From the IMG/VR virus record IMGVR_UViG_3300035698_001626, positions 1 to 43,312 of that record: DNA of 43,312 nucleotides. One strand, 5' to 3'. Positions 5,599-43,312 of this stretch are shown piece by piece. A program made the position numbers and the translations under genes. Positions within the stretch are counted from its first letter, which is position 1, and the number at the start of each line of letters is the position of its first letter. Under the pieces are notes generated by a model, which saw only the letters and a list, made by a program, of their open reading frames with translations, made no database searches and was not told the origin of the DNA. Source of the stretch: a virus.

Positions 5599-5781
5599 AT
5601 GATTGAGAATCCGAAGGTTGGTATGAAGGTGGTGGTTAGTGGCCATTCCATAATCGTAGAAGAAGGTGATGTTGGTACTGTGGAAAGCTACGATGGAGGT
5701 TCAACTGTTAAAGTTAAAATGGACAAAGATAATGATATTTGGAGTTTTTCCCGCAAGAGTTTAACCGAAATCAAGGAGTAA
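5599..5781 (+). CDS. Small beta protein, N-terminal half of split paralog
   Basis: Predicted 60 residues (KVGMKVVV...EGDVGTVESYDGG, SFSRKSLTEIKE), which looks like a small beta-barrel of the type found in KOW/SH3-like domains. It matches residues 1-61 of the 138-residue protein at 40642. Here the ORF stops at TAA where the fused copy reads GAT, and the second half restarts two codons later. AAGGAGAG precedes the ATG. Function unknown. Confidence 0.7.
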   Translation: MIENPKVGMKVVVSGHSIIVEEGDVGTVESYDGGSTVKVKMDKDNDIWSFSRKSLTEIKE

Positions 5782-5784
5782 AAT

Positions 5785-6012
5785 ATGTATTTAGACGAAG
5801 CACTGAAAGCTGTGAGAGAGGATGAAAACATTGAAATGTCCTGGGGGTGTAAAGCGCGCTGGTATGCACACAAAGAATATGACGAAAGCATGCCGCTTAA
5901 AGACCTTCTTGAGAAGACCTTTTCTGTTAGACGCAGAAAACCACCCGTAATGGAACTCACAGTAGCCGACATTGAAGAAAGGTACGGCTGCAAAGTCAAG
6001 ATTGTTAAATAG
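5785..6012 (+). CDS. C-terminal half of split paralog
   Basis: Predicted 75 residues, matching residues 64-138 of the fused protein at 40642 (YLDEALKAVREDENIEMSWG, then ELTVADIEERYGCKVKIVK). The ATG corresponds to CTG in the fused copy; the same reading frame continues through stop and restart. AAGGAG 10 nt upstream, inside the end of the first half, acts as ribosome site. The C-terminal VADIEE-YGCKVKIV segment looks like a short helix plus strand. Role unknown. Confidence 0.7.
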   Translation: MYLDEALKAVREDENIEMSWGCKARWYAHKEYDESMPLKDLLEKTFSVRRRKPPVMELTVADIEERYGCKVKIVK

Positions 6013-6013
6013 T

Positions 6014-6099
6014 CGATAACCCAAACGTGGAGGCATACTCAAAGTATTTACAACCAATTCAACTGTGCAGGGCGGGTGTTTTACAAGACTCACCCGCCC
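6014..6099 (+). other. Conserved non-coding element, copy A
   Basis: 6014-6076 is identical to 41060-41122 except one base, which is better conserved than the flanking coding sequence. It contains a small inverted repeat ATACT-CAA-AGTAT (6035-6047) and then a 9-bp perfect hairpin GGGCGGGTG / CACCCGCCC (6070-6099). No U tract follows the hairpin, so it is not a plain terminator. Could be an RNA element, a protein-binding site or a recombination site. Confidence 0.6.
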
Positions 6100-6118
6100 A
6101 ACTTTAAAAGGGGATCAA

Positions 6119-6255: not shown

Positions 6256-6672
6256 TCATGGTGCATACAGGATAGGTCTGCGATTCTTGGGGTCTGCTGC
6301 TCTCTTAGCTAAACGATTGACTGCAAACACCACATACCATGCCCGTATACTGCTCATGCCGTCAGCACGGCACATAGAGCCTAATATGCTATTTACTTTC
6401 TTGAAATAGTTAAGGCTTAATTTACCTTCACGGAATAGCTGAAAAAATCCATCATGTACCAAAGATGGGCGCATGAAATTCCTCGTATTTATTGCACCAC
6501 TTGCGCCATCCCATGCGTAGCCTGCTTTAAAGTGGAACATTCCGTTCTTCTCAAGCATTAAAAAACCGCCTGAAGAAACTATATCTTTAGACAGCCTGAT
6601 AGGTGTTTGTACAGAGTACGGCCTTCTGAGCCAGTTGTCATACCCTTTTGAGTAGTATATCCGGTCAATCAT
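6256..6672 (-). CDS. DUF1353 family protein
   Basis: Predicted 138 residues with the DUF1353 signature: AGYAWDGASGA, then PSLVHDGFFQLFREGKLS and a C-terminal GM-x-x-x-RAW helix. The family is common at the lysis end of phage late operons and has no established activity; the conserved W-D-G and H-D residues hint at a catalytic site. Last gene of the leftward operon, overlapping the lipoprotein gene by four bases. Confidence 0.8.
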   Translation of the reverse strand: MIDRIYYSKGYDNWLRRPYSVQTPIRLSKDIVSSGGFLMLEKNGMFHFKAGYAWDGASGAINTRNFMRPSLVHDGFFQLFREGKLSLNYFKKVNSILGSMCRADGMSSIRAWYVVFAVNRLAKRAADPKNRRPILYAP

Positions 6673-6914
6673 GGCATAACCACAGATTTAACGATTGCAG
6701 ATAGCGTATCAGACAGTAATTGCGTCTGCACCGCGCTTGATTTCTTGTCAATCTTAACCACAGTTCCATCCGGGGCGGTCACTGAAAGACCCTCAAGGTT
6801 CTGATCTTCAAACAATCGCTTGGAAGTAATCTCAACGGGGCCATATTTTATCTTGACAACTGAGCAGGAACATGCAAGGCAAGCTATGAATAAAAGAACG
6901 ATGGCTGATTTCAT
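6669..6914 (-). CDS. Small lipoprotein, possible outer spanin
   Basis: Predicted 81 residues: a hydrophobic signal (AIVLLFIACLACSCS) with Cys residues at 12, 15 and 17, any of which may be the lipidated one, then about 60 exported residues. A lipoprotein next to an endolysin and a small membrane protein is the usual layout of a two-gene spanin pair that fuses inner and outer membranes at lysis. The lipobox is imperfect, so the exact lipidation site is uncertain. Overlaps both neighbours by four bases. Confidence 0.6.
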   Translation of the reverse strand: MKSAIVLLFIACLACSCSVVKIKYGPVEITSKRLFEDQNLEGLSVTAPDGTVVKIDKKSSAVQTQLLSDTLSAIVKSVVMP

Positions 6915-7174
6915 TCGACACCCCCTAATCGTTTGTTAATATGTACAATCTCATTTTGAACCACGGCGAGCTGTGAGGTACTTTTAGTTATTCCTGCTCT
7001 AATAAACCCAATGTCAGTACCAATTGAACCAAACATATAAAGTCCGATTGTCAAGACTGCCAACATGCCACCACCAAACACCCACTTGAAATTTCTCATA
7101 CTTGTCTCCAAACTTGCAATGGCTATAGTTCTAGTTTCATGTTCAGTGCAATGATCTTTCATATCAGGTTCCAT
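6911..7174 (-). CDS. Membrane protein, holin or inner spanin candidate
   Basis: Predicted 87 residues: soluble N-terminal helix, one long membrane helix (WVFGGGMLAVLTIGLYMFG, about residues 31-49), then a C-terminal helix with coiled-coil character (AVVQNEIVHINKRLG). Between the endolysin and the lipoprotein it may act as holin or as inner-membrane spanin partner. ATG 7174 has a poor ribosome site; an in-frame ATG at 7162 is an alternative. Confidence 0.55.
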   Translation of the reverse strand: MEPDMKDHCTEHETRTIAIASLETSMRNFKWVFGGGMLAVLTIGLYMFGSIGTDIGFIRAGITKSTSQLAVVQNEIVHINKRLGGVE

Positions 7175-7200
7175 GTTGAAGCCATTAAAATATTAGCGGT

Positions 7201-7557
7201 TTAACCTATCCACCTTGACATTACATGTCGTGAATCAAAATGTGTAAATGTTTTGTAGCTTCCAATTCCATATGTATCTGGGTACTCATCTGCAAGAAAC
7301 ATATAAACCTGTTCGGGTGTTTTTCCCTTAACCACAATATCAGCGGCCCTTGCTTTAACATGTTGAGATGTGTCTTTGCTGCCAATCTTTCTATTATACT
7401 TCAAACACCTACATGCTGAATTAATATAAACTGGAGCGTTGGCCCAAGCCCGAACCACTTCAAGGACTTCAAGTGTTTCAAAGTCAACGGTATCAAATCC
7501 GCAACCGCATCTGCATTCAAATTCTGACCGGCTGAAATGTTTCTGTCGTAGGGTCAT
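7201..7557 (-). CDS. Endolysin, peptidase M15A family
   Basis: Predicted 118-residue zinc peptidase that cleaves peptidoglycan peptide bonds. Signature EFECRCGCG at residues 12-20; zinc ligands are probably H66 and D73 (SQHVKARAADIV) and H106 (THFDSRH), with a C-terminal SRW. This is the usual length for a single-domain phage M15A enzyme. The ATG at 7557 is chosen because AAAGG lies just upstream and it begins 11 bases after the tailspike stop; upstream in-frame starts overlap that gene. Cytoplasmic, with no signal peptide, so release depends on a holin. Confidence 0.85.
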   Translation of the reverse strand: MTLRQKHFSRSEFECRCGCGFDTVDFETLEVLEVVRAWANAPVYINSACRCLKYNRKIGSKDTSQHVKARAADIVVKGKTPEQVYMFLADEYPDTYGIGSYKTFTHFDSRHVMSRWIG

Positions 7558-19923: not shown

Positions 19924-20862
19924 TCAACCCCAAAAACTTAATGCCGTAGTGCCTGCTGCTCCCAACACACCAGTTCCAAGAGCATTCCACCCTTTTTTCT
20001 TGTTTAGTCGGCTTTGAGTCATCCAATTTCTGCTTTCTTCTTTAAAGCCATATACTTCTGATTCAGTGTTAGAACGACTTGTTTCAACGTCAAGTGCAAC
20101 CTTTTCTGCTGTATCCATTTCCCACGAAAGAGGCGAACCGCTACCAAGCGCAATACCTGAAGCACCCCATGCAGCCCTTCCTTCTCCTATCGTTTTTGCA
20201 CCTGCAAGCATGATATCTTGTCGTTCAATCTCACCACGTTCTTCCGCTGAATTAGCAGCCCACTTCGCACTCTTGGCATTATTCTCTGCAATATCAGCTT
20301 CGGTATCAGCTTCCATCTTTTTTTGGTATCCAGTAAGCAACTTTGACCCAGCTTTTAGACCAAGAGTTGCCCATTGACCAGCAGACATGCCAGGGGTTGC
20401 TACGGCCGGTGTAGCGGTAGCTGGTAGAGCTGAGTTTATGCCAGCACCCTGAGTGAGACTCCCCCACGTTGCACTTCCACCTGCACTTCCACCTACACTT
20501 CCACCTACACTTCCACCTACACTTCCACCTACACTTCCACCTACACTTCCACCTACACTTCCACCTACACTTCCACCTACACTTCCACCTACACTTCCAC
20601 CTACTCCGGCACCTACTCCGCCACCAGCTCCTGCACCTGCTCCGGCACCAGAGGCTGAGCCGAAAAGGCTACTAATAAACCCTGGAATAAATGGAGTTGC
20701 AGCAGCAGTTACACCGCCAGTTACACCGCCAATTGCACCGTTAATTGCAGCAGCATTTCCAGCATCACCCCATGTTCCACCTTGTGCTTTTGTAACGCCA
20801 GCACCCATTGCAGCACCAGTTAGCACTCCAATGGTTATAGGCCCGCTTACAGGTCCACACAT
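19924..20862 (-). CDS. Internal virion protein (gp14-like) with GGSV repeats
   Basis: Predicted 312 residues starting MCGPVSGPITIGV, similar to the MC-hydrophobic start of T7 gp14-type proteins. Residues 40-75 are Gly/Ala-rich and membrane-seeking; then eleven tandem (V/A)GGS units form a flexible linker. The C-terminal half is a long helix (AENNAKSAKWAANSAEERGEIERQD... GEGRAAWGASGIALGSGSPLS) with the Q-x-x-x-x-G-x-x-R-A-x-x-G-A-S-G-I pattern of gp14 relatives. Probably ejected to form the outer-membrane part of the DNA channel. GGGAG supports ATG 20862. Confidence 0.7.
   Translation of the reverse strand: MCGPVSGPITIGVLTGAAMGAGVTKAQGGTWGDAGNAAAINGAIGGVTGGVTAAATPFIPGFISSLFGSASGAGAGAGAGGGVGAGVGGSVGGSVGGSVGGSVGGSVGGSVGGSVGGSVGGSVGGSAGGSATWGSLTQGAGINSALPATATPAVATPGMSAGQWATLGLKAGSKLLTGYQKKMEADTEADIAENNAKSAKWAANSAEERGEIERQDIMLAGAKTIGEGRAAWGASGIALGSGSPLSWEMDTAEKVALDVETSRSNTESEVYGFKEESRNWMTQSRLNKKKGWNALGTGVLGAAGTTALSFWG
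20472..20603 (+). repeat. Eleven 12-bp tandem repeats
   Basis: Unit CACTTCCACCTA repeated eleven times (the first copy has a G variant), encoding GGSV units on the minus strand inside the gp14-like gene. In-frame and nearly perfect, so copy number may vary by slippage. Confidence 0.95.
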
Positions 20863-20863
20863 A

Positions 20864-21328
20864 TTATTCTCCCATCGTAAAATGACTAAACGGTAAATTG
20901 TCAAACCCAAAAGGCTTTGGTTCTTCTAATTTAAAACCACACCATTGAAGCCACCGCATTGACTTCGTATTTCTAACATCAACCCAATTCTCAAGCACCG
21001 CATAGGATTGCTGCATAAGATTGACATAATACCTTGAAAACCTCAGAAATTCTCTCGTTATGGCATACATCCCATCCGTTCCAAGCAACCAAGGATATCC
21101 CGTATCGCTTAATACTCCACCAGAAGCCACTCCAAACATCGCAACCGGAAAACCCTTGTGGTGTATCGTCCAAGCAAGAGAAGATTGCTGAAACGCATTA
21201 ACAACCGCCTTCAATGGCTTATGCCTGTGACTTGACCAGACCTCATTGCGGTCAGATTCACGCATATTCTCAGCAATCACAAGAATATCGCCTATAACTG
21301 CCTTTTTGACTATCTTGCTACCCGCCAA
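20864..21328 (-). CDS. GNAT-like internal virion protein (gp13-like, DUF2833)
   Basis: Predicted 154 residues. The pattern of an N-terminal helix with ESDRNEVW, a central strand pair (GFPVAMFGVASGG) and the C-terminal VDVRNTKSMRWLQWCGFKL matches the acetyltransferase-like fold of T7 gp13-type proteins. The W-C-G-F near the C-terminus is typical of the last strand. It sits between nozzle and gp14-like genes as in T7. Assembly-factor role is known for gp13 in T7; no catalytic claim is made here. Confidence 0.65.
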   Translation of the reverse strand: MAGSKIVKKAVIGDILVIAENMRESDRNEVWSSHRHKPLKAVVNAFQQSSLAWTIHHKGFPVAMFGVASGGVLSDTGYPWLLGTDGMYAITREFLRFSRYYVNLMQQSYAVLENWVDVRNTKSMRWLQWCGFKLEEPKPFGFDNLPFSHFTMGE

Positions 21329-34716: not shown

Positions 34717-34938
34717 TCAATCCCTCGCATCAAGCAAATCATCAAGCATGCGGTGTAAATCTTCACGGGCGGGTTTAAGCTTTATTGGTTTGAAATCACA
34801 ACAAAAAAAATCATCGTTTTCTCGCATATAATAATCACCATCATTGCATTTTGCGATATTAGATATCACCGATCTTCCATCACTAAGTATTTCAATATTC
34901 TCCCGATCCCAAAATTTACAATCTCCACATTTACTCAT
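34717..34938 (-). CDS. Cys-rich conserved phage protein
   Basis: Predicted 73 residues: CGDCKFWDR at the start, a middle Cys, and FFCCDFKPI, a four- or five-Cys pattern of small phage proteins that probably bind one metal ion. The C-terminal helix is charged. GGGGGAAG precedes the ATG, which overlaps the upstream stop. Function unknown. Confidence 0.6.
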   Translation of the reverse strand: MSKCGDCKFWDRENIEILSDGRSVISNIAKCNDGDYYMRENDDFFCCDFKPIKLKPAREDLHRMLDDLLDARD

Positions 34939-35075
34939 ATCACTTCCCCCGTTAAATAGTATTCGATTTTAGCTATTGCCACTTTTGATCCATTACATAT
35001 TAAAGCACAATATCCCTGAGTGCGCAAGTATTCTATCCACCTTTTCTGATCTTGTATTTCTGCGGTTTGGGGCAT
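34935..35075 (-). CDS. 46-residue protein like VRR-NUC C-terminus
   Basis: Sequence WIEYLRTQGYCALICNGSKVAIAKIEYYL follows the pattern (W-I-x-x-L-R-x-Q-G-Y ... A-x-x-x-I-x-x-Y-L) that ends phage VRR-NUC nucleases, but the catalytic part is missing. The gene follows an unrelated-looking endonuclease by 10 bases and overlaps the next start (ATGA). Either a free-standing accessory domain or the remnant of a nuclease replaced by the neighbour. Confidence 0.55.
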   Translation of the reverse strand: MPQTAEIQDQKRWIEYLRTQGYCALICNGSKVAIAKIEYYLTGEVI

Positions 35076-35085
35076 GGGTTCATTA

Positions 35086-35442
35086 TTATTCTTTATCCCC
35101 CCGTTTCATTTGTATAGCAAGTTCAATCAATTCAACGCCTGATTCGCCTATTCTTTTTGGGTCTGCCCTGAGCATGTCGGAAGTAACCCGGATCACACAC
35201 CAGCCGTAAATGGCAGCTAAACTGTATTTCTGACAATCCTTTGAATAGCCCTTGCCCCTGCTATGACCGCCATGAATAAAAGTTCCACCTTCATACTCCA
35301 CTGCAATTTTTAAATCTGGTATGGCAAAATCAAACCGGAACCGCCTGCCCGGTATTGCTTGATATTCCCGTTCAAATTTAACCTTCATACATTTCAGCAG
35401 CAGATTTATTGTTTCTTCGCCTTTACTGCGTTGTCTTTTCAT
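35086..35442 (-). CDS. PD-(D/E)XK endonuclease (Vsr/DUF559-like)
   Basis: Predicted 118 residues. Core FEREYQAIPGRRFRFDF and LKIAVEYEGG gives E26, D38, E49 and E51, the acidic set of a compact restriction-like fold; HGGHS and the C-terminal GWCVIRVTSDML are shared with DUF559/Vsr-type nucleases. Phage versions may act as junction resolvases or nicking enzymes. ATG 35442 is preferred, with AAAGG just upstream. Confidence 0.75.
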   Translation of the reverse strand: MKRQRSKGEETINLLLKCMKVKFEREYQAIPGRRFRFDFAIPDLKIAVEYEGGTFIHGGHSRGKGYSKDCQKYSLAAIYGWCVIRVTSDMLRADPKRIGESGVELIELAIQMKRGDKE

Positions 35443-35480: not shown

Positions 35481-35498
35481 GCTTGCGCTTTTGCGCCT
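35481..35498 (-). repeat. Partial intergenic cassette, fourth copy
   Basis: Carries only the AGGCGCAAAAGCGCAAGC part of the repeat found at 36109, 36552 and 37027, right after the stop of the methyltransferase-like gene. Confidence 0.5.
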
Positions 35499-36108
35499 AA
35501 CTCCATTGGTTTGCCATTTCGCGGGCTATACCAGGGAATGTCTTCGATCTTACTTTTGGGTCACGGGTTGCCCCGTCTGCAAAATATGTTGGCTTACCAT
35601 TTGTCTTTAAGAATGAATGTGGTTTTGGTTTATCAACGTGCGTTTTACTGTGAAATAATCCGCTATCTTTCTCATGTTGCAGTAACGGCAAGTTTTTTAA
35701 AAACAGACAAGTGGTTTTTTGCTCACTGTCCCCAAAATAGTATGGTTGTATTACTTGGCTATATTTTGCTATTACAGGTGACGCACACCCTTTAGGATTT
35801 TCAAGGCATATTTTATCAATATCTGCAAGCCATAGCTTTGAAAAGAAATTAAGCGCATCCAACCTCAATTGTAGTCTCCCCAGGTTGTCCCAGTGCCGTG
35901 TACCGGCATACGTTAAATATGTGCATGGCGGAAAACCTATAAGCATATCCCATTTTTGTTTTAGCTGTTCCAACACATCGCCATGTATGTGCCATTCAGG
36001 ATGTCCACCTGAACATTCTTGCGTGTCGCATGAATACGCTTCATGTCCACGTTTGCGGAACTCAATACACACGGCTTGGCTTTCTTCACATGCTACAAGT
36101 ACGCGCAT
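35497..36108 (-). CDS. Phage DNA cytosine methyltransferase-like protein
   Basis: Predicted 203 residues. N-terminal RVLVACEESQAVCIEFRKRGHEAYSCD is an SAM-binding-like start, and WDMLIGFPPCTYLT (F-P-P-C at 59-62) matches motif IV, with C62 the presumed nucleophile. The protein is much shorter than host C5 methylases, as usual for this phage family, whose activity is not well established. May protect phage DNA from restriction. The ribosome site lies in an intergenic repeat cassette. Confidence 0.7.
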   Translation of the reverse strand: MRVLVACEESQAVCIEFRKRGHEAYSCDTQECSGGHPEWHIHGDVLEQLKQKWDMLIGFPPCTYLTYAGTRHWDNLGRLQLRLDALNFFSKLWLADIDKICLENPKGCASPVIAKYSQVIQPYYFGDSEQKTTCLFLKNLPLLQHEKDSGLFHSKTHVDKPKPHSFLKTNGKPTYFADGATRDPKVRSKTFPGIAREMANQWS

Positions 36109-36166
36109 CCCACCCCCTATAAAGTTTTTTCTCTACCCATCTGCCTGCTGCGCTTTTGCGCCTGTC
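36109..36166 (-). repeat. Intergenic cassette, copy 1
   Basis: On the minus strand: GACAGGCGCAAAAGCGC, then GGCAGATGGGTAGAGAAAAA, then CTTTATAGGGGGTGGG and the ATG of the methyltransferase-like gene. Copies at 36552 and 37027 share the same order. It supplies the ribosome site, and the GCGC-AAAA-GCGC part can fold into a small hairpin. Confidence 0.7.
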
Positions 36167-36167
36167 G

Positions 36168-36551
36168 TTAGTTTGTGGACTCTCCATAAAGTTCAATATG
36201 CAGTTCTAGATCTTTGCCTTTAAGGTCGTTAAATTCTTCTGCATTTTCACAATCGCCATCAAGGTATGCAGGGCACTCCAAACCACAACCACCATTTATA
36301 CCAACAATAAAACAAGTTGACATTCCCCGTGGATAGCTACCGTCTATCTCAGACATCGCATTACCCATATTATTAACATCTGCATGGGTGACTATTTTTT
36401 TATTAGTAAGTGGCTTGGTAATCGTAACACCAAAACCACCGTAAACCTCATTAGAACATTCAATGAGTTTCTGTTTATTAAACCCCTTAGGGTATTTTTC
36501 TTTTGCTATTTTTATAGATTTTTTTGCTAATTCAGTTTTTGGGTTAAACAT
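36168..36551 (-). CDS. 127-residue hypothetical protein
   Basis: Not recognised. Basic N-terminal helix (AKKSIKIAKEKYPKGFNKQK), a Gly-rich middle and a Cys cluster (GGCGLECPAYLDGDCENAEEF) that might hold a metal. Expressed from the repeat-cassette ribosome site. Function unknown. Confidence 0.6.
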   Translation of the reverse strand: MFNPKTELAKKSIKIAKEKYPKGFNKQKLIECSNEVYGGFGVTITKPLTNKKIVTHADVNNMGNAMSEIDGSYPRGMSTCFIVGINGGCGLECPAYLDGDCENAEEFNDLKGKDLELHIELYGESTN

Positions 36552-36608
36552 AACACCCCCCTATAAAGTTGATTCTCTATACATCTGCCGCTCACGCTTT
36601 TGCTGTCT
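36552..36608 (-). repeat. Intergenic cassette, copy 2
   Basis: Same order of elements as copy 1 with a few changes (GACAGCAAAAGCGTGAGC, GGCAGATGTATAGAGAATC, CTTTATAGGGGGGTG). Its first part encodes the last residues (TAKA) of the upstream gene. Confidence 0.7.
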
Positions 36609-36759
36609 CTATTATTTTATATAGTGTGCTTTGTAAATGTGCTTCTGGGCAAGTTTTAGCTTCAAATTCCACTCCCTTACATAGCTTAATAATCGCATCC
36701 ATTTTAGTTTCATATATATCAACCATTTGCGCAACTCTTGTTTCTTCATTTGGTGTCAT
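36592..36759 (-). CDS. 55-residue paralog of the 5262 N-terminal module
   Basis: MTPNEETRVAQMVDIYETKM is clearly related to MTASEETKVAQMQDDYEIRI of the gene at 5262, at DNA as well as protein level; the rest (KLCKGVEFEAKTCPEAHLQS) has its own Cys pair. Supports shuffling of small modules between the two early operons. Function unknown. Confidence 0.6.
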   Translation of the reverse strand: MTPNEETRVAQMVDIYETKMDAIIKLCKGVEFEAKTCPEAHLQSTLYKIIETAKA

Positions 36760-36765
36760 AATATG

Positions 36766-37026
36766 TCACTCCACTCTTCCATTTTGGTTAGGGATAGTCC
36801 CCGCAAGGTTATTGTTGTCTTCTTCCATAATAAACCACTCAGTGCCAATTTTTTGTTCAAGTATGCACTTATCTTCCGGGCCACATCTTGATAAATATTT
36901 AATCTTGCTTTGAGGTACGTTGTTTTCCCAAACCTCAACCATTCCGTTCCAAGTTGGAAAAGCAATATCGTGCATTAGTTTATTTTCAATATCCCAAGCC
37001 CTAAACATAATCTTAATACCTTTCAT
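36766..37026 (-). CDS. YopX-like protein
   Basis: Predicted 86 residues beginning MKGIKIMFRAWDIENKLM, the signature start of the phage YopX family, followed by a Tyr/Trp-rich beta region. YopX proteins are common in phage early regions and have no established role. Ribosome site is in cassette copy 3. Confidence 0.7.
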   Translation of the reverse strand: MKGIKIMFRAWDIENKLMHDIAFPTWNGMVEVWENNVPQSKIKYLSRCGPEDKCILEQKIGTEWFIMEEDNNNLAGTIPNQNGRVE

Positions 37027-37088
37027 CCTACCCCCCCCTTATAAAGTTTTTTCTCTAAACATCTGCCTATCACGCTTTTGCGCCTGTC
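37027..37088 (-). repeat. Intergenic cassette, copy 3
   Basis: GACAGGCGCAAAAGCGTGAT, then AGGCAGATGTTTAGAGAAAA, then CTTTATAAGGGGGGGG before the YopX-like start. Here the cassette also encodes the end of the preceding gene (KRDRQMFREKTL), so it spans a gene boundary in frame. Confidence 0.75.
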
Positions 37089-37596
37089 CTGGGTCTTCAT
37101 GCTCACGTTTTGTAATCAGTTTTACCACGTCCTCAACTATGTGCTTTCCACACACCATTTGCTCCGGTGTCGAATGCGGACGAATATCATCTTGCGGAAA
37201 TATCTCATTGTAGTACGGTAAATTGATATACTCCGAAGTCTTGCACTTATGACAGCGTGCTGAATACTGATATTTAACATTGTTGATCTCTTTCCAGTAA
37301 TCTATGCACCCCAATGAATCACAATAAGTACATCCGATAGTGCCTGTATTCTCACGCTTCGGCGTAACCTCAGTGATTGCGTCTTTGATAACACGCCACG
37401 TTATACGCTTAGTGTCATTTTCTCCTATGCGCTTACATGCCTTAACAAGTATTTCTTGTGGGTATGTGCCAAAATCTTGATACCATTGCTTGCCCTGTCC
37501 TGTAGCAAGGCGTAAACTGCAACGGTTATACATCACGGTTATCATGTCAAGAAAACCGTCCTCAGTCATTGATTTGTTTTGTGATGTGTAGGTCAT
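37039..37596 (-). CDS. Zinc-finger replication accessory, possible helicase loader
   Basis: Predicted 185 residues. N-terminal helical part (DGFLDMITVMYNRCSLRLATGQ, WRVIKDAITEVTPKREN) and a central Cys4-type zinc site (CTYCDSLGC ... CHKC), then a helical tail. Placed 8 bases after the replication initiator, as helicase loaders commonly are. No Walker A is present, so it would be of the ATP-independent, lambda P-like type. The C-terminal residues lie in cassette copy 3. Assignment is inferential. Confidence 0.55.
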   Translation of the reverse strand: MTYTSQNKSMTEDGFLDMITVMYNRCSLRLATGQGKQWYQDFGTYPQEILVKACKRIGENDTKRITWRVIKDAITEVTPKRENTGTIGCTYCDSLGCIDYWKEINNVKYQYSARCHKCKTSEYINLPYYNEIFPQDDIRPHSTPEQMVCGKHIVEDVVKLITKREHEDPGQAQKRDRQMFREKTL

Positions 37597-37604
37597 AATA
37601 TCGC

Positions 37605-38333
37605 CTAATAAATTGACAAGTCTCTATCGGTTTGTTTTTCAACTTCATCGTCCCAACCACCTGCTCTTAACCATGATGCAGGGTATGGGATAAATTGACC
37701 GCTATCTTTTGTCCAATCTTCGCACTTCTTTAAAAGCAATAGCTTTGAAATAATCATGTCTATAAATTCAACCGTTACTTTAATCTTAATATCATACCAA
37801 GCATTACGAGCGTCAATTTTTGCTTTTTTCTTTGGGTATGCAATCCAAAAACTTTCAAACCCTTGCTCTAATATCTTCTCTTCTATTAACTTAACTTCTC
37901 TTAACTTAACTTCTCTTATGGGTGTCACTGGTAAACCTGTGGGTGTCACTGGTAAACCATCGCATTTACGGGTATTTACATCGGTGCGCTCTGGAAACAT
38001 TGGAATGTGCGCTCTGTCCTTTCTGAGCGTCTGGTGGTCAGTAAATCCAACAATCTCTAAAAATGGGCCTTCACCGTAGATGATTATAAGGCCAACTTGC
38101 TCTAAAACATCAAGCGCATGTTTAAAGTCTTTTACTTTACGATCTGAGCATGGCAACACTTTTGCCTTAACAACTCTAGGGTCAGCGTCAAAATGTCCGA
38201 AGTCGTCAGTCTGTGGCATAATCCATGAATAAAGAAGCCATACAAATTCGTGCATCTTGGGTTCAGCATCCATCACGGCAAGTATTTTCTTGCTATTTTG
38301 GATTGTGTTAGAAATCATTCTACCCCTAGCCAT
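37605..38333 (-). CDS. Phage replication initiator (DnaD/O-like)
   Basis: Predicted 242 residues. N-terminus MARGRMISNTIQNSKKI ... LLYSWIMPQTDDFGHFDADPRVVKAKVLP is the winged-helix start of phage replisome organizers; C-terminal FESFWIAYPKKKAKIDARNAW and FIPYPASWLRAGGW are typical of the same family. The linker has two in-frame tandem duplications (37886-37915, 37920-37958). Probably binds the phage origin and recruits host helicase through the next gene. ATG 38333 fits the family start; its ribosome site is weak. Confidence 0.75.
   Translation of the reverse strand: MARGRMISNTIQNSKKILAVMDAEPKMHEFVWLLYSWIMPQTDDFGHFDADPRVVKAKVLPCSDRKVKDFKHALDVLEQVGLIIIYGEGPFLEIVGFTDHQTLRKDRAHIPMFPERTDVNTRKCDGLPVTPTGLPVTPIREVKLREVKLIEEKILEQGFESFWIAYPKKKAKIDARNAWYDIKIKVTVEFIDMIISKLLLLKKCEDWTKDSGQFIPYPASWLRAGGWDDEVEKQTDRDLSIY
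37886..37915 (-). repeat. Two 15-bp tandem repeats in initiator gene
   Basis: Unit TTAACTTAACTTCTC twice, encoding REVKL twice in the linker. A second duplication, GGGTGTCACTGGTAAACC at 37920-37937 and 37941-37958 (21-nt period, LPVTPTG), lies next to it. Iterated repeats inside a replication initiator gene can be origin iterons, but these are few. Confidence 0.85.
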
Positions 38334-38496: not shown

Positions 38497-38709
38497 TTAT
38501 TTATTCAACAACGGGCAGTTTTGTTTTGTGCAAAACGAGCTTGTATTTTTTGTGTGGTGACATATTGCAGGGGTATTGCGTATACACTTAAATTGTATAG
38601 TGTTAAATTTTGCAATGTTTGCCAGCTCAGCTTTAAGTTCAGTGATTTGGTTAGTTAGATCGGCAATAGTTTCTACAAGTGCTCTCATGTGATCTTTTCG
38701 CAATTCCAT
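38497..38709 (-). CDS. Coiled-coil Cys-tail protein, paralog 1
   Basis: Predicted 70 residues: helix with ADLTNQITELKAELANIA, then KC...C...FCTKQNCPLLNK. Its tail is shared with the neighbouring gene (CTKQNCPLL) and, as an untranslated remnant, with 5557-5580. The conserved Cys spacing suggests metal binding. Starts at ATG 38709 after GAGG. Function unknown. Confidence 0.6.
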   Translation of the reverse strand: MELRKDHMRALVETIADLTNQITELKAELANIAKFNTIQFKCIRNTPAICHHTKNTSSFCTKQNCPLLNK

Positions 38710-38711
38710 CC

Positions 38712-38996
38712 TCACACCTTACCTTTCAACAACGGGCAGTTTTGTTTGGTGCATTCGGTTGAATATTGACCGTTGGTGCAGAAGTTTGTCGGGTAATAAA
38801 TATCACCCGATTTTGTCTTTCCAGGCTTCCGCATATCACAGCGGTATTTAAAATCATCAAACGACACACTATTTGCCAGCTCCGCTTCAATTTCGTTGAT
38901 GTATTGCCCGACTTTATCCCATGCGTTTTTTGCATAGCGGGGGTATTCATAAGCAACATCACGAACTATGTCCATGTATTTTACTAGCTTATCCAT
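38712..38996 (-). CDS. Coiled-coil Cys-tail protein, paralog 2
   Basis: Predicted 94 residues: helical start (MDKLVKYMDIVRDVAYEYPRY), the shared INEIEAELANSV helix, then RCDMRKPGKTK and FCTNGQYSTECTKQNCPLL. Same architecture as its downstream neighbour and, in its N-terminal helix, as the gene at 5262. AAAGGA precedes the ATG. Function unknown. Confidence 0.65.
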   Translation of the reverse strand: MDKLVKYMDIVRDVAYEYPRYAKNAWDKVGQYINEIEAELANSVSFDDFKYRCDMRKPGKTKSGDIYYPTNFCTNGQYSTECTKQNCPLLKGKV

Positions 38997-39020
38997 AACA
39001 ATCCATCCTTTCAAAAGCGG

Positions 39021-39224: not shown

Positions 39225-39491
39225 TGTTTCCCTTTCTAGATTATTAAATTCATAGTTTGTAAGGTGTGACCAAAAACAAATGCCACTGTTAAAATACATT
39301 ACAGCTTTATGGTTAATTTTAGGACGGCACACTAGGTTTTCTGCGTCACAATAACCTATTGCATGTTTTACTAAAACGCACCGATTCTCAAGAATAAACT
39401 TTTCACGATTACATAAAACACCTAAATCTAAAAGATGTCCCGCGCGCCATTCCTGCCAAGTAAACAAGCTGGGATCAATTTTCGGTATCAT
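39021..39491 (-). CDS. Cys-rich radical-SAM neighbour, in frame with HTH
   Basis: ATG 39491 lies 17 bases inside the end of the radical SAM gene and opens a 156-residue frame. The first 89 residues (MIPKIDPSLFTWQEWRAGHLLDLGVLCN ... GYCDAENLVCRPKINHKAVMYF) form a Cys/aromatic-rich domain; the last 67 are the HTH protein. No stop separates them although the HTH part has its own strong ribosome site. Overlap with the radical SAM gene suggests the N-terminal domain is its partner or substrate. Whether one fused protein or two products are made cannot be decided from sequence. Confidence 0.5.
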   Translation of the reverse strand: MIPKIDPSLFTWQEWRAGHLLDLGVLCNREKFILENRCVLVKHAIGYCDAENLVCRPKINHKAVMYFNSGICFWSHLTNYEFNNLERETMKTTPQKYYKYMSPGQKIDCCEFCDISQGYFSEICRGVKTNPHRDIIKKIAKFTGLSVESLLNIKKR

Positions 39492-40440
39492 AAAACTTAA
39501 CCATATTATTATAATCAACGCAAACATCAAGACAGTTTTTATTACATATCGGGTCGTTAAAACAATTATGGTTTTTATGCCAATCAATGCGTTCTTTCCT
39601 CATGGTATTAGAAACTATACCTATGGGCGCACCATTTTCACGCATATGTATAATACATGGGTAGTGATGATTCCCGCGTATTGCACTATCGTCTATAACT
39701 AGGGGGCATCTAATATTGTCAGTGCTTTTAAGTCCCCTAACATTGCGACCAAGTTTAAAATTATTAACCCGATAATTTAATATTCTATGTTTTTTTAATA
39801 TATATTTTGGTATCTGTGAAACAAACTCAAGTGTTTTATTATATTGCGCTGCTGTTAATATACGTATATCCGCAACCCCGAGTTGGCTTGCAAATTTTAT
39901 TGTTTCAACAGATTGAGCAATGTTTTTTTCATCAAACACGCATCCAGTAGTAACGTATGTGCGCTTGGATAGCTCTCTTATATTATTCACAACGTTATTC
40001 CATTGCCCACCAACACCATCCATTTTATCACCAAAAGATGAACAGCAGGCATCTAGTGAAATAGAGAAATCATTGCACCCGTGTTTTAATAAATCTAAAT
40101 AATATTCTAGCGACTTTGAACCATTGGTTGAAATAGCAATGCGCTCAACACCTCTTTTTTTTGCATGTTCTACAATATCATCTAACCAACTAACCATTGT
40201 AGGCTCACCACCAGAAAATCTAATATTTTTTAACCCATCATCACACCATAGATCAACTACTTTCTTGGCATACTCAAAAGAAATATCTGCATCTTTTTTT
40301 GTGCCCCGACAATAAGGACACTTGAAATTACATTTTGACGTTACTAACAACTCGCATCTTTGCATCGGCGATGTTGGCGATAAATTTTTTGCTCGATAGT
40401 TTGATAGTGTATAAAATCCAATATCGCTTAAATCTTTCAT
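39475..40440 (-). CDS. Radical SAM enzyme with SPASM-like Cys tail
   Basis: Predicted 321 residues. C37-x3-C41-x2-C44 (CNFKCPYC) binds the SAM [4Fe-4S] cluster; FSGGEPT is the SAM-contacting GGE motif, and STNGS and SLD follow in order. C-terminal Cys residues (RCPLV, PCIIH, NHNCFNDPICNKNCLDVC) look like a SPASM/twitch auxiliary-cluster region, which is linked to peptide or protein modification; viperin-type enzymes lack it. First gene of the leftward early operon, directly under its promoter, and overlaps a Cys-rich partner ORF. Substrate unknown. Confidence 0.8.
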   Translation of the reverse strand: MKDLSDIGFYTLSNYRAKNLSPTSPMQRCELLVTSKCNFKCPYCRGTKKDADISFEYAKKVVDLWCDDGLKNIRFSGGEPTMVSWLDDIVEHAKKRGVERIAISTNGSKSLEYYLDLLKHGCNDFSISLDACCSSFGDKMDGVGGQWNNVVNNIRELSKRTYVTTGCVFDEKNIAQSVETIKFASQLGVADIRILTAAQYNKTLEFVSQIPKYILKKHRILNYRVNNFKLGRNVRGLKSTDNIRCPLVIDDSAIRGNHHYPCIIHMRENGAPIGIVSNTMRKERIDWHKNHNCFNDPICNKNCLDVCVDYNNMVKFYDTEN

Positions 40441-40599: not shown

Positions 40600-40641
40600 T
40601 TTAAATAGAGATTGAGAACACAAACCGCAAAGGAGAGTACA

Positions 40642-41058
40642 ATGATTGAAAATCTGAAGGTTGGTATGAGGGTGGTAGTTAATAGCCATTCCAGCATCGA
40701 AAAAGAAGGTGATGTTGGTACTGTGGAAAGCTACGGAAACGAACGCCTAACTGTTAAAGTTAGACTTAAAAAAGACAACAATATTCGCGGTTTTTCCCGC
40801 AAGAGTTTAACCGAAATCAAGGAGGATAATCTGTATTTAGACGAAGCACTGAAAGCTGTGAGAGAAGATGAAAACATGGAAATGTCCTGGGGGACTAAAA
40901 CTTTTTGGTATACACACAAAGAATATGACGGAAGCATGAAGCTTGAAGACCTTCTCGAAGAGACCTTTTCAGTTAGACGCAAAAAACCACCTGTCAAGGA
41001 ACTCACAGTAGCCGACATTGAAGAAAAGTACGGCTGCAAAGTCAAGATTGTTAAATAA
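40642..41058 (+). CDS. Fused two-domain paralog, unknown function
   Basis: Predicted 138 residues. First half (MIENLKVGMRVVV...EGDVGTVESYGN, FSRKSLTEIKE) is a small beta domain; second half (LYLDEALKAVREDENMEMSWG ... ELTVADIEEKYGCKVKIVK) is helical then beta. The two halves are separate genes at 5599 and 5785. AAAGGAGAG precedes ATG 40642. As the first gene of the early transcript it may be expressed immediately after infection. Not recognised as a known family. Confidence 0.75.
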   Translation: MIENLKVGMRVVVNSHSSIEKEGDVGTVESYGNERLTVKVRLKKDNNIRGFSRKSLTEIKEDNLYLDEALKAVREDENMEMSWGTKTFWYTHKEYDGSMKLEDLLEETFSVRRKKPPVKELTVADIEEKYGCKVKIVK

Positions 41059-42367: not shown

Positions 42368-43219
42368 ATGGGTGAAGAAAAAATTATAGACGCTGTTGAG
42401 GTAAGAGAACAAAGCAACCTTTCTATTGCAGACGATAGCTTGTTGCAAGTTGCAATGCGGGCAGAAGAACGTATTGATGCTGTTGTTAAGATCAAAAACA
42501 TGGCGCTCAAGGTGACAAACTCCGGCGACTGGGTAGACCAGAACGGCAAGCCGTATCTTCAGGTCAGTGGATCTGAAAAGATCGCTAACCTGTTTAGTGT
42601 TTCATGGACAATTGGCGAACCAACATGCGAATTTGAAGATAGTGGACATTTCACATATACATATAAGGGGCGGTTTTCAATCCCCGGCAGGAGTATCGAA
42701 GTAACCGGGAGCCGGTCAAGCAAAGACCCGTTTTTTAAGAGATATGAATATATTAATAATGTCAAAACAGAAAAGCCCATCTCTGAAATTGACAAGCGTG
42801 ATGTGAAAATGGCGGCAATGACAAACCTGCTTGGAAACGGTATCACGCGCCTGCTTGGAATTCGAAACCTCACCTATGCTGACTTAGAAGAATTTGCCGG
42901 TATACTAAAAAGCCAACTTGGAAAGGTAGAATATAAAAAGAAAGCTAAGTCTCAAACCCAGCAGGAACAGCCGGACCCGCAGGCCAAAACAAAAGAGCAA
43001 AGTTCTGGTGATCAAGAAAAAACAACATACCCGCCTTCTGGTAAAAAGATAACAACAGGGCAAGTTGGCCTGATTCAAGCACGATGCGCGGCAACCGGGC
43101 ATAAAGAAGAAGCTCTGAAAACCATCAAGGATTTTTACAAGGTTGAAAGCACAAAAGACCTTTTGATGGATGATATGAACACAATCCTTGACATGATCGG
43201 CGCTGGTCAAAATGACTGA
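42368..43219 (+). CDS. Recombination protein, putative single-strand annealing
   Basis: Predicted 283 residues. N-terminal domain with a beta core (LQVSGSEKIANLFSVSWTIG ... GHFTYTYKGRFSIPGRSIEVTG) and KRDVKMAAMTNLLGNGITRLLGIRNLT, a Lys/Gln-rich linker (about 190-225), and a C-terminal helical domain (TGQVGLIQARCAATGHKEEALKTIKDFY ... LLMDDMNTILDMIG) of the sort that ends RecT/Rad52-like phage proteins. It overlaps the exonuclease, the usual partner of an annealing protein. The specific family was not recognised, so the role rests mainly on context. Confidence 0.55.
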   Translation: MGEEKIIDAVEVREQSNLSIADDSLLQVAMRAEERIDAVVKIKNMALKVTNSGDWVDQNGKPYLQVSGSEKIANLFSVSWTIGEPTCEFEDSGHFTYTYKGRFSIPGRSIEVTGSRSSKDPFFKRYEYINNVKTEKPISEIDKRDVKMAAMTNLLGNGITRLLGIRNLTYADLEEFAGILKSQLGKVEYKKKAKSQTQQEQPDPQAKTKEQSSGDQEKTTYPPSGKKITTGQVGLIQARCAATGHKEEALKTIKDFYKVESTKDLLMDDMNTILDMIGAGQND

Positions 43220-43312
43220 ATTTATTTTCAAAGAGCTTGAGCATGAGTATTGGGTTGATGGAGTTCGGTGGCCTTCGGTCACTGAGTTTCTGTCACCGCT
43301 GAATGATTTTTC
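43186..43312. repeat. Terminal overlap, right copy
   Basis: Identical to 1-127; see left copy. It should be removed once when the genome is closed to 43,185 bp. Confidence 0.95.
43212..43312 (+). CDS. Exonuclease start, duplicate of window start
   Basis: First 33 codons of the PD-(D/E)XK exonuclease, cut by the window end. Same gene as 27-659 in the closed circle, not a second copy. Confidence 0.9.
   Translation, partial: MTEFIFKELEHEYWVDGVRWPSVTEFLSPLNDF

Follow-up and report, generated by a model that had tools for sequence, protein, structure and literature searches.

A gene end carrying a ribosome-binding site as a probable reused border for small-gene exchange among related phages

The window, as the whole analysed stretch is called here, is 43,312 nucleotides of viral DNA (IMG/VR record IMGVR_UViG_3300035698_001626, positions 1–43,312) and carries an epsilon15-like portal and a terminase pair. 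A 127-bp direct repeat occupies its termini (1–127 and 43186–43312), and on the plus strand an exonuclease gene (27–659; phrog_298) directly continues from the gene of a 283-aa protein (42368–43219) across this repeat, an arrangement indicating that the genome is complete or nearly complete. The 283-aa protein, whose gene adjoins that of the exonuclease, is a candidate annealing protein by position only; its relative in podovirus ctQWt234 adjoins a Cas4-like gene, no family match marks an annealing function, and its predicted fold has a pLDDT of 37. Elsewhere in the window, two similar gene copies (40612–41058 and about 5600–6100, both plus strand) were seen from closely similar antisense ORF translations, the early region encodes a radical SAM protein (39475–40440, minus strand; PF04055) that is weakly QueE-like by PHROGs, and a structural-region protein (19924–20910, minus strand) contains a long GGSVGGSVGGS repeat run.

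On the minus strand, a Rep-like replication initiation gene (37605–38330) lies upstream of a gene for a 185-aa protein with a Cys-rich middle (37039–37596), which has no match among named phages or plasmids and is related to proteins in three virus contigs, L047 (71%), L048 (51%) and L049 (48%). Behind it stand an 86-aa gene with a weak YopX-like N-terminus (36766–37026; phrog_98, E 0.003), a 55-aa ORF (36592–36759), a 127-aa gene (36168–36551) for which no family was matched and viral contigs gave no confirmed relative, a DNA methyltransferase gene (35497–36108; phrog_757) and a VSR/DUF559-like nuclease gene (35086–35442; phrog_503), all on the same strand. Further along, a 46-aa ORF (34935–35075, minus strand) matches a VRR-NUC-like protein found in L052 (76%), L049, L055, L056 and L047 at its C-terminal end alone, and represents a truncated or remnant gene. 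At 38497–39014 (minus strand), two adjoining small genes have a common C-terminal tail, TKQNCPLL (29 bp, 97%), and a common 34-bp upstream stretch; the pair is possibly another shared gene end, or a pair of tandem paralogues.

Three copies of a ~58-bp sequence, termed C, B and A and hereafter called the joint, are found on the minus strand at the boundaries of these genes. Copy C (37027–37088) consists of the final 15 codons of the 185-aa gene with its stop codon (tail QAQKRDRQMFREKTL-stop) and a ribosome-site G-run, and is followed by the ATG of the 86-aa YopX-like gene; it reads CAG GCG CAA AAG CGT GAT AGG CAG ATG TTT AGA GAA AAA ACT TTA TAA, then the G-run and ATG. Copies B (36552–36610) and A (36109–36166) are tail-only, their frames (QQKRERQMYRESTL-stop and QAQKRSRQMGREKTL-stop, respectively) being intact and contained in no called gene, and the ATG of the 127-aa gene follows B as that of the methyltransferase follows A. 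All three finish in the G-run directly before the start codon, and A and B share the open frame of copy C (Q.KR.RQM.RE.TL-stop). An earlier, sequence-only reading of the locus had overlooked both that the coding sequence of the 185-aa gene ends in copy C and that the other two copies preserve its reading frame. Copy B additionally supplies the preceding 55-aa ORF with its last codons and TGA stop, in another frame, which fits a joint made within older sequence. The repeat is a copied gene ending with the ribosome-binding site of the next gene, and not a free-standing cassette.

The threefold occurrence of a ~57–62 bp repeat, as that reading had described it, is borne out by searches of the window: the 22-nt core AGAGAAAAAACTTTATAGGGGG has three matches at up to 3 mismatches, with 0.00 expected from shuffles, and AGGCGCAAAAGCGC has three at up to 1 mismatch, with 0.01 expected. 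The genes behind A, B and C are mutually unrelated, again as described. A partial fourth copy proposed at 35481 shrinks to a 15-nt piece (fragment D, 35484–35498, minus strand) at the methyltransferase stop codon, holding the 5′ part of the tail only (AGGCGCAAAAGCGCA) and lacking the ribosome-site part. Each copy was also held to overlap the end of the preceding gene, and while the position before an ATG stands, copy A begins just past the previous stop. Of the ribosome site, start codon and GCGC-AAAA-GCGC hairpin described as kept, the G-run before the ATG is retained in every window copy, whereas the hairpin folds in A and C and not in B or in the copies of relatives, and no copy clearly beats its shuffles.

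Three pattern scans (one constrained only at the final codons and the G-run, two permitting codon choice) returned 10 copies in seven contigs, the window included, hence 7 copies in six other virus contigs; these copies are few, with pairs that are non-independent, several of the contigs are fragments, and six of the seven contigs came from searches partly shaped to the motif. L050 and L052 are one phage sequence (100% over 1209 bp) and were counted once, and L051 and L053, in which the match is confined to the final 19 nt of the joint and the tail is absent, were omitted. Among host genome contigs, the first wobble-pattern scan gave no match, and a second scan gave a single match, in a Lokiarchaeota MAG, which reads as chance. 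The reading frame is open in all 10 copies, and the tail is conserved at the protein level (ERKRERQLxRExTL-stop).

The genes on either side of the joint differ widely between these contigs. In the window, copy C joins the 185-aa gene to the YopX-like gene, B the 55-aa ORF to the 127-aa gene and A the 127-aa gene to the methyltransferase; L047 has the tail both between Rep and a YopX gene and between the 185-aa gene and a YopX gene, L048 has it at the end of its 185-aa gene, and L049 between the 185-aa gene and a 145-aa gene, while the tail separates pentapeptide and 71-aa genes in L052, Rep and 100-aa genes in L055, and Rep and 95/105-aa genes in L056. Four of the 7 copies outside the window are tail-only, placed behind Rep or pentapeptide genes and followed by unrelated genes. 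In L047, L055 and L056, the tail-only joint comes directly after the gene in the Rep position, and in the latter two it occupies the place where the window, L048 and L049 carry the 185-aa gene. At least seven unrelated genes or families stand behind the copies (YopX, 145-aa, 100-aa, 95/105-aa, 71-aa, 127-aa and methyltransferase), and the L056 gene has a 73% identical relative in the window, at 1904–2188, where the joint is absent. The joint is common to phages with different terminase and portal types, as judged by reading their ORFs.

Other repeated sequences were observed in the same contigs. L048 has arrays of a 69-bp unit coding leucine-rich-repeat-like proteins at two places (1–1291 and 6466–7496), as well as a 272-bp segment repeated at 99%. 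Small proteins with common N- and/or C-terminal ends (MTLQDAHKTGRKYRR... and ...GKRTKLTIEVL) and different middles are encoded around L047 6528–6830, L049 7648–7911, L055 3772–4071, and L056 4782–5075 and 5339–5656; their arrangement suggests that exchange may occur inside genes too.

Pairwise blastn placed the end of the shared segment within a few bases of the G-run or ATG. With the copies aligned on the tail, mean identity rises from 0.27 in the sequence before tail-only copies to 0.82 at −30 to −15, dips to 0.56 at −15 to 0, where the variable codons lie, reaches 0.97 at 0 to +14, and falls to 0.28 immediately past the ATG. Taken with the blastn ends, this profile indicates a downstream edge fixed at the start codon and an upstream edge that varies from ~45 to 76 bp. 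The sequence-only reading had called for a search of relatives for different genes behind the repeat; such genes were found, with homology at chance level on both sides of the tail-only copies.

Within the tail, change follows the genetic code even where no called gene contains it. Across 12 codons of the six tail-only copies (A, B and four from other contigs), 29 nucleotide changes produce 9 amino-acid changes, against 20.6 expected (0/2062 simulations reaching so few), and across the 8 codons left unfixed by the search pattern there are 6 amino-acid changes against 15.5 expected (0/1989 simulations). Because the changes are mostly synonymous, each tail-only copy must stem recently from a coding copy, and since such a signature fades without translation, the tails are either young or refreshed by exchange. 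The longest exact matches are 25–38 nt between phages and at most 18–20 nt within one genome; set against the minimum pairing length of 23–27 nt for Red-beta (PMC3945230), these lengths suggest that exchange between phages is easier than recombinational loss within a genome.

The main rival to a role in exchange is that the repeat is a regulatory element, retained as a driver of translation, or of transcription, for the genes that follow, with gene turnover secondary. All copies do lie directly before start codons, and the 3′-terminal AACTTTATA[G/A]GGGG (the last ~14 nt) is invariant in 9 of the 10 copies, wobble positions included, a constancy that exceeds coding need, so that the repeat may owe part of its retention to selection on translation initiation. 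In mycobacteriophages, the start-associated sequences (SAS) likewise overlap the ribosome site and precede genes from several families (PMC3203893). Upstream of those last ~14 nt, however, variation follows codon wobble, in tail-only copies as elsewhere; no sigma-70 type promoter was matched at the copies (this type being the one sought), nor is there a conserved hairpin; and the same methyltransferase occurs without the joint in L049 and elsewhere. Regulation as the principal reason for the repeat is considered unlikely on this balance.

A further rival is that the 185-aa gene and its neighbour were duplicated in tandem and most of the duplicate was then deleted; this would leave tails behind that have no role in exchange, and the order tail–YopX–185-aa gene with its tail–YopX in L047 fits such a duplication and loss. 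Copies A and B in the window, however, are flanked on both sides by unrelated genes, the divergence among copies within one genome is about as large as their divergence from the closest copies in other phages, and L055 and L056 have tail-only copies with no adjoining 185-aa gene, making decay after duplication an improbable account of the whole set. That the ~58-bp element is the site of an integrase, integron attC-like or other, moving one-gene cassettes is very improbable: the length near 59 bp, the presence of one element per gene and the direct orientation agree with it, but there is no attC-like fold, the sequence is an ordinary coding end, and a PF00589 tyrosine integrase is absent from the window and six related records (some of which may be fragments; the control detected 14 of 14 known genomes). 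Equally improbable is a phage RNA-polymerase promoter, for which CTTTATAGGGGG, positioned before genes, offers a superficial TATAGGG likeness to the initiating part of T7-type promoters, given that the upstream tail varies as codons do, the motif in L048 reads ACCTTATGGGGGG, and no T7-type RNA polymerase was matched in the seven records in a search run without a positive control.

The probable explanation is that the gene end with its ribosome site is a reused recombination border at which these phages swap small genes. The unit of tail and ribosome site recurs in related phages, with the gene body or as a tail-only remnant, and with different genes behind it. When a gene is lost or its neighbour replaced, recombinants that retain a ribosome site before the start codon would survive with expression of the next gene intact, and the 45–76 bp of tail that they keep could then provide homology for later exchange between phages, so that the border is used again. 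In the window, the border would have been taken up twice more, at A and B and perhaps also at D, with a new gene behind each. The candidate machinery is strand annealing by a phage exonuclease/recombinase pair; the exonuclease is recognisable and has the 283-aa protein as a candidate partner beside it, and it is plausible that annealing made the joints, the assignment of recombination proteins being a guess. No donor and recipient in a before-and-after state were found among the seven contigs. The swapping joint proposed by the earlier reading is right in outline, in that the downstream gene differs between relatives, but 'built-in' does not describe it: the element is an ordinary gene end, copied, of a kind seen at other borders, and no dedicated device.

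Several known systems resemble the joint in part. Repeated short intergenic elements of T4-type phages, the PeSL cassettes (Arbiol et al. 2010; Comeau et al. 2014), are said to mediate modular shuffling. A PeSL consists of a promoter with a stem-loop or terminator, whereas the joint has no sigma-70 promoter-like site and no conserved stem-loop. Lambdoid boundary sequences are described, in the work as cited in PMC3029335 (Susskind and Botstein 1978; Clark et al. 2001, HK620), as short conserved gene-border sequences at which modules are exchanged by homologous recombination. The joint is likewise a short border sequence conserved between phages, with different genes beside it and homology ending at the border. 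Each lambdoid boundary sequence occurs once in a genome, at a fixed place, whereas the present border can be demonstrated to be a gene end and has been copied to further sites in one genome. Most similar among published cases is the gene 67–68 region of Island3 and Brujita (cluster I mycobacteriophages), where the end of an extra gene repeats the last 18 codons of the upstream gene, ~50 bp, and recombination between the ~50-bp sequences was inferred in Island3 (PMC3029335). The 3′ end of an upstream gene is repeated beside an inserted gene in both cases, but in Island3 a single phage has a single extra gene, whose C-terminus the repeated end encodes, whereas the tail described here stands alone, outside called genes, in copies A and B, L055 and L056, carries the ribosome site of the next gene, and is distributed over seven contigs, with two or three tails per genome. 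SAS of cluster K mycobacteriophages are 13 bp long, number 11–19 per genome in the non-structural half, and are accompanied by ESAS with inverted repeats (PMC3203893). Both SAS and the joint belong to the non-structural half and overlap the ribosome site a few bp from the starts of several gene families; the main part of the joint varies mostly at codon wobble positions, its last ~14 nt being invariant in 9 of the 10 copies, whereas PMC3203893 describes no gene-end origin for SAS. What is new is the form: lone tails with the ribosome site of the next gene, in several copies per genome and shared across phages.

Other gene ends behave similarly in this phage group. The last ~65 bp of the VSR-like gene (35086–35150) form a second joint, recurring tail-only in L056 (80% over 65 bp), again directly before a start codon, and as 31 identical bp, also tail-only, directly before another start codon in L052. 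In L049, it is the tail of an unrelated 83-aa gene that precedes the relative of the window's methyltransferase; the 12 nt GGGGGTGGGATG are identical there, and are absent from the other methyltransferase loci listed. The tails of the 185-aa, VSR-like and 83-aa genes all recur before different genes elsewhere, two of them also without their gene bodies. With the first joint excluded, 16 of 87 right ends of shared segments lie no more than 6 nt from a called gene start (2.5% expected; P 4.6e-10), and left ends do so less often (10 of 104), counts that come from six contigs with mechanical gene calls and segments that are not fully independent. A tentative generalisation, held with less than even confidence, is that gene ends with the ribosome site of the next gene are portable joints in general in this group, accessory genes docking behind any of them at a shared G-run and ATG, as with GGGGGTGGGATG. 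If so, selection for an upstream ribosome site would set the module borders, and breakpoints would directly precede start codons and not be scattered between genes.

Exchange at such borders gives a sequence-level picture of how small genes may be swapped without breakage of the operon, the upstream tail and ribosome site remaining in place as the gene behind them changes. It connects two old ideas, that of boundary sequences and that of illegitimate joints among which selection acts as a filter, and yields a prediction of breakpoint positions. For annotation, it is a warning that repeats preceding start codons may be remnants of gene ends and not regulatory motifs.
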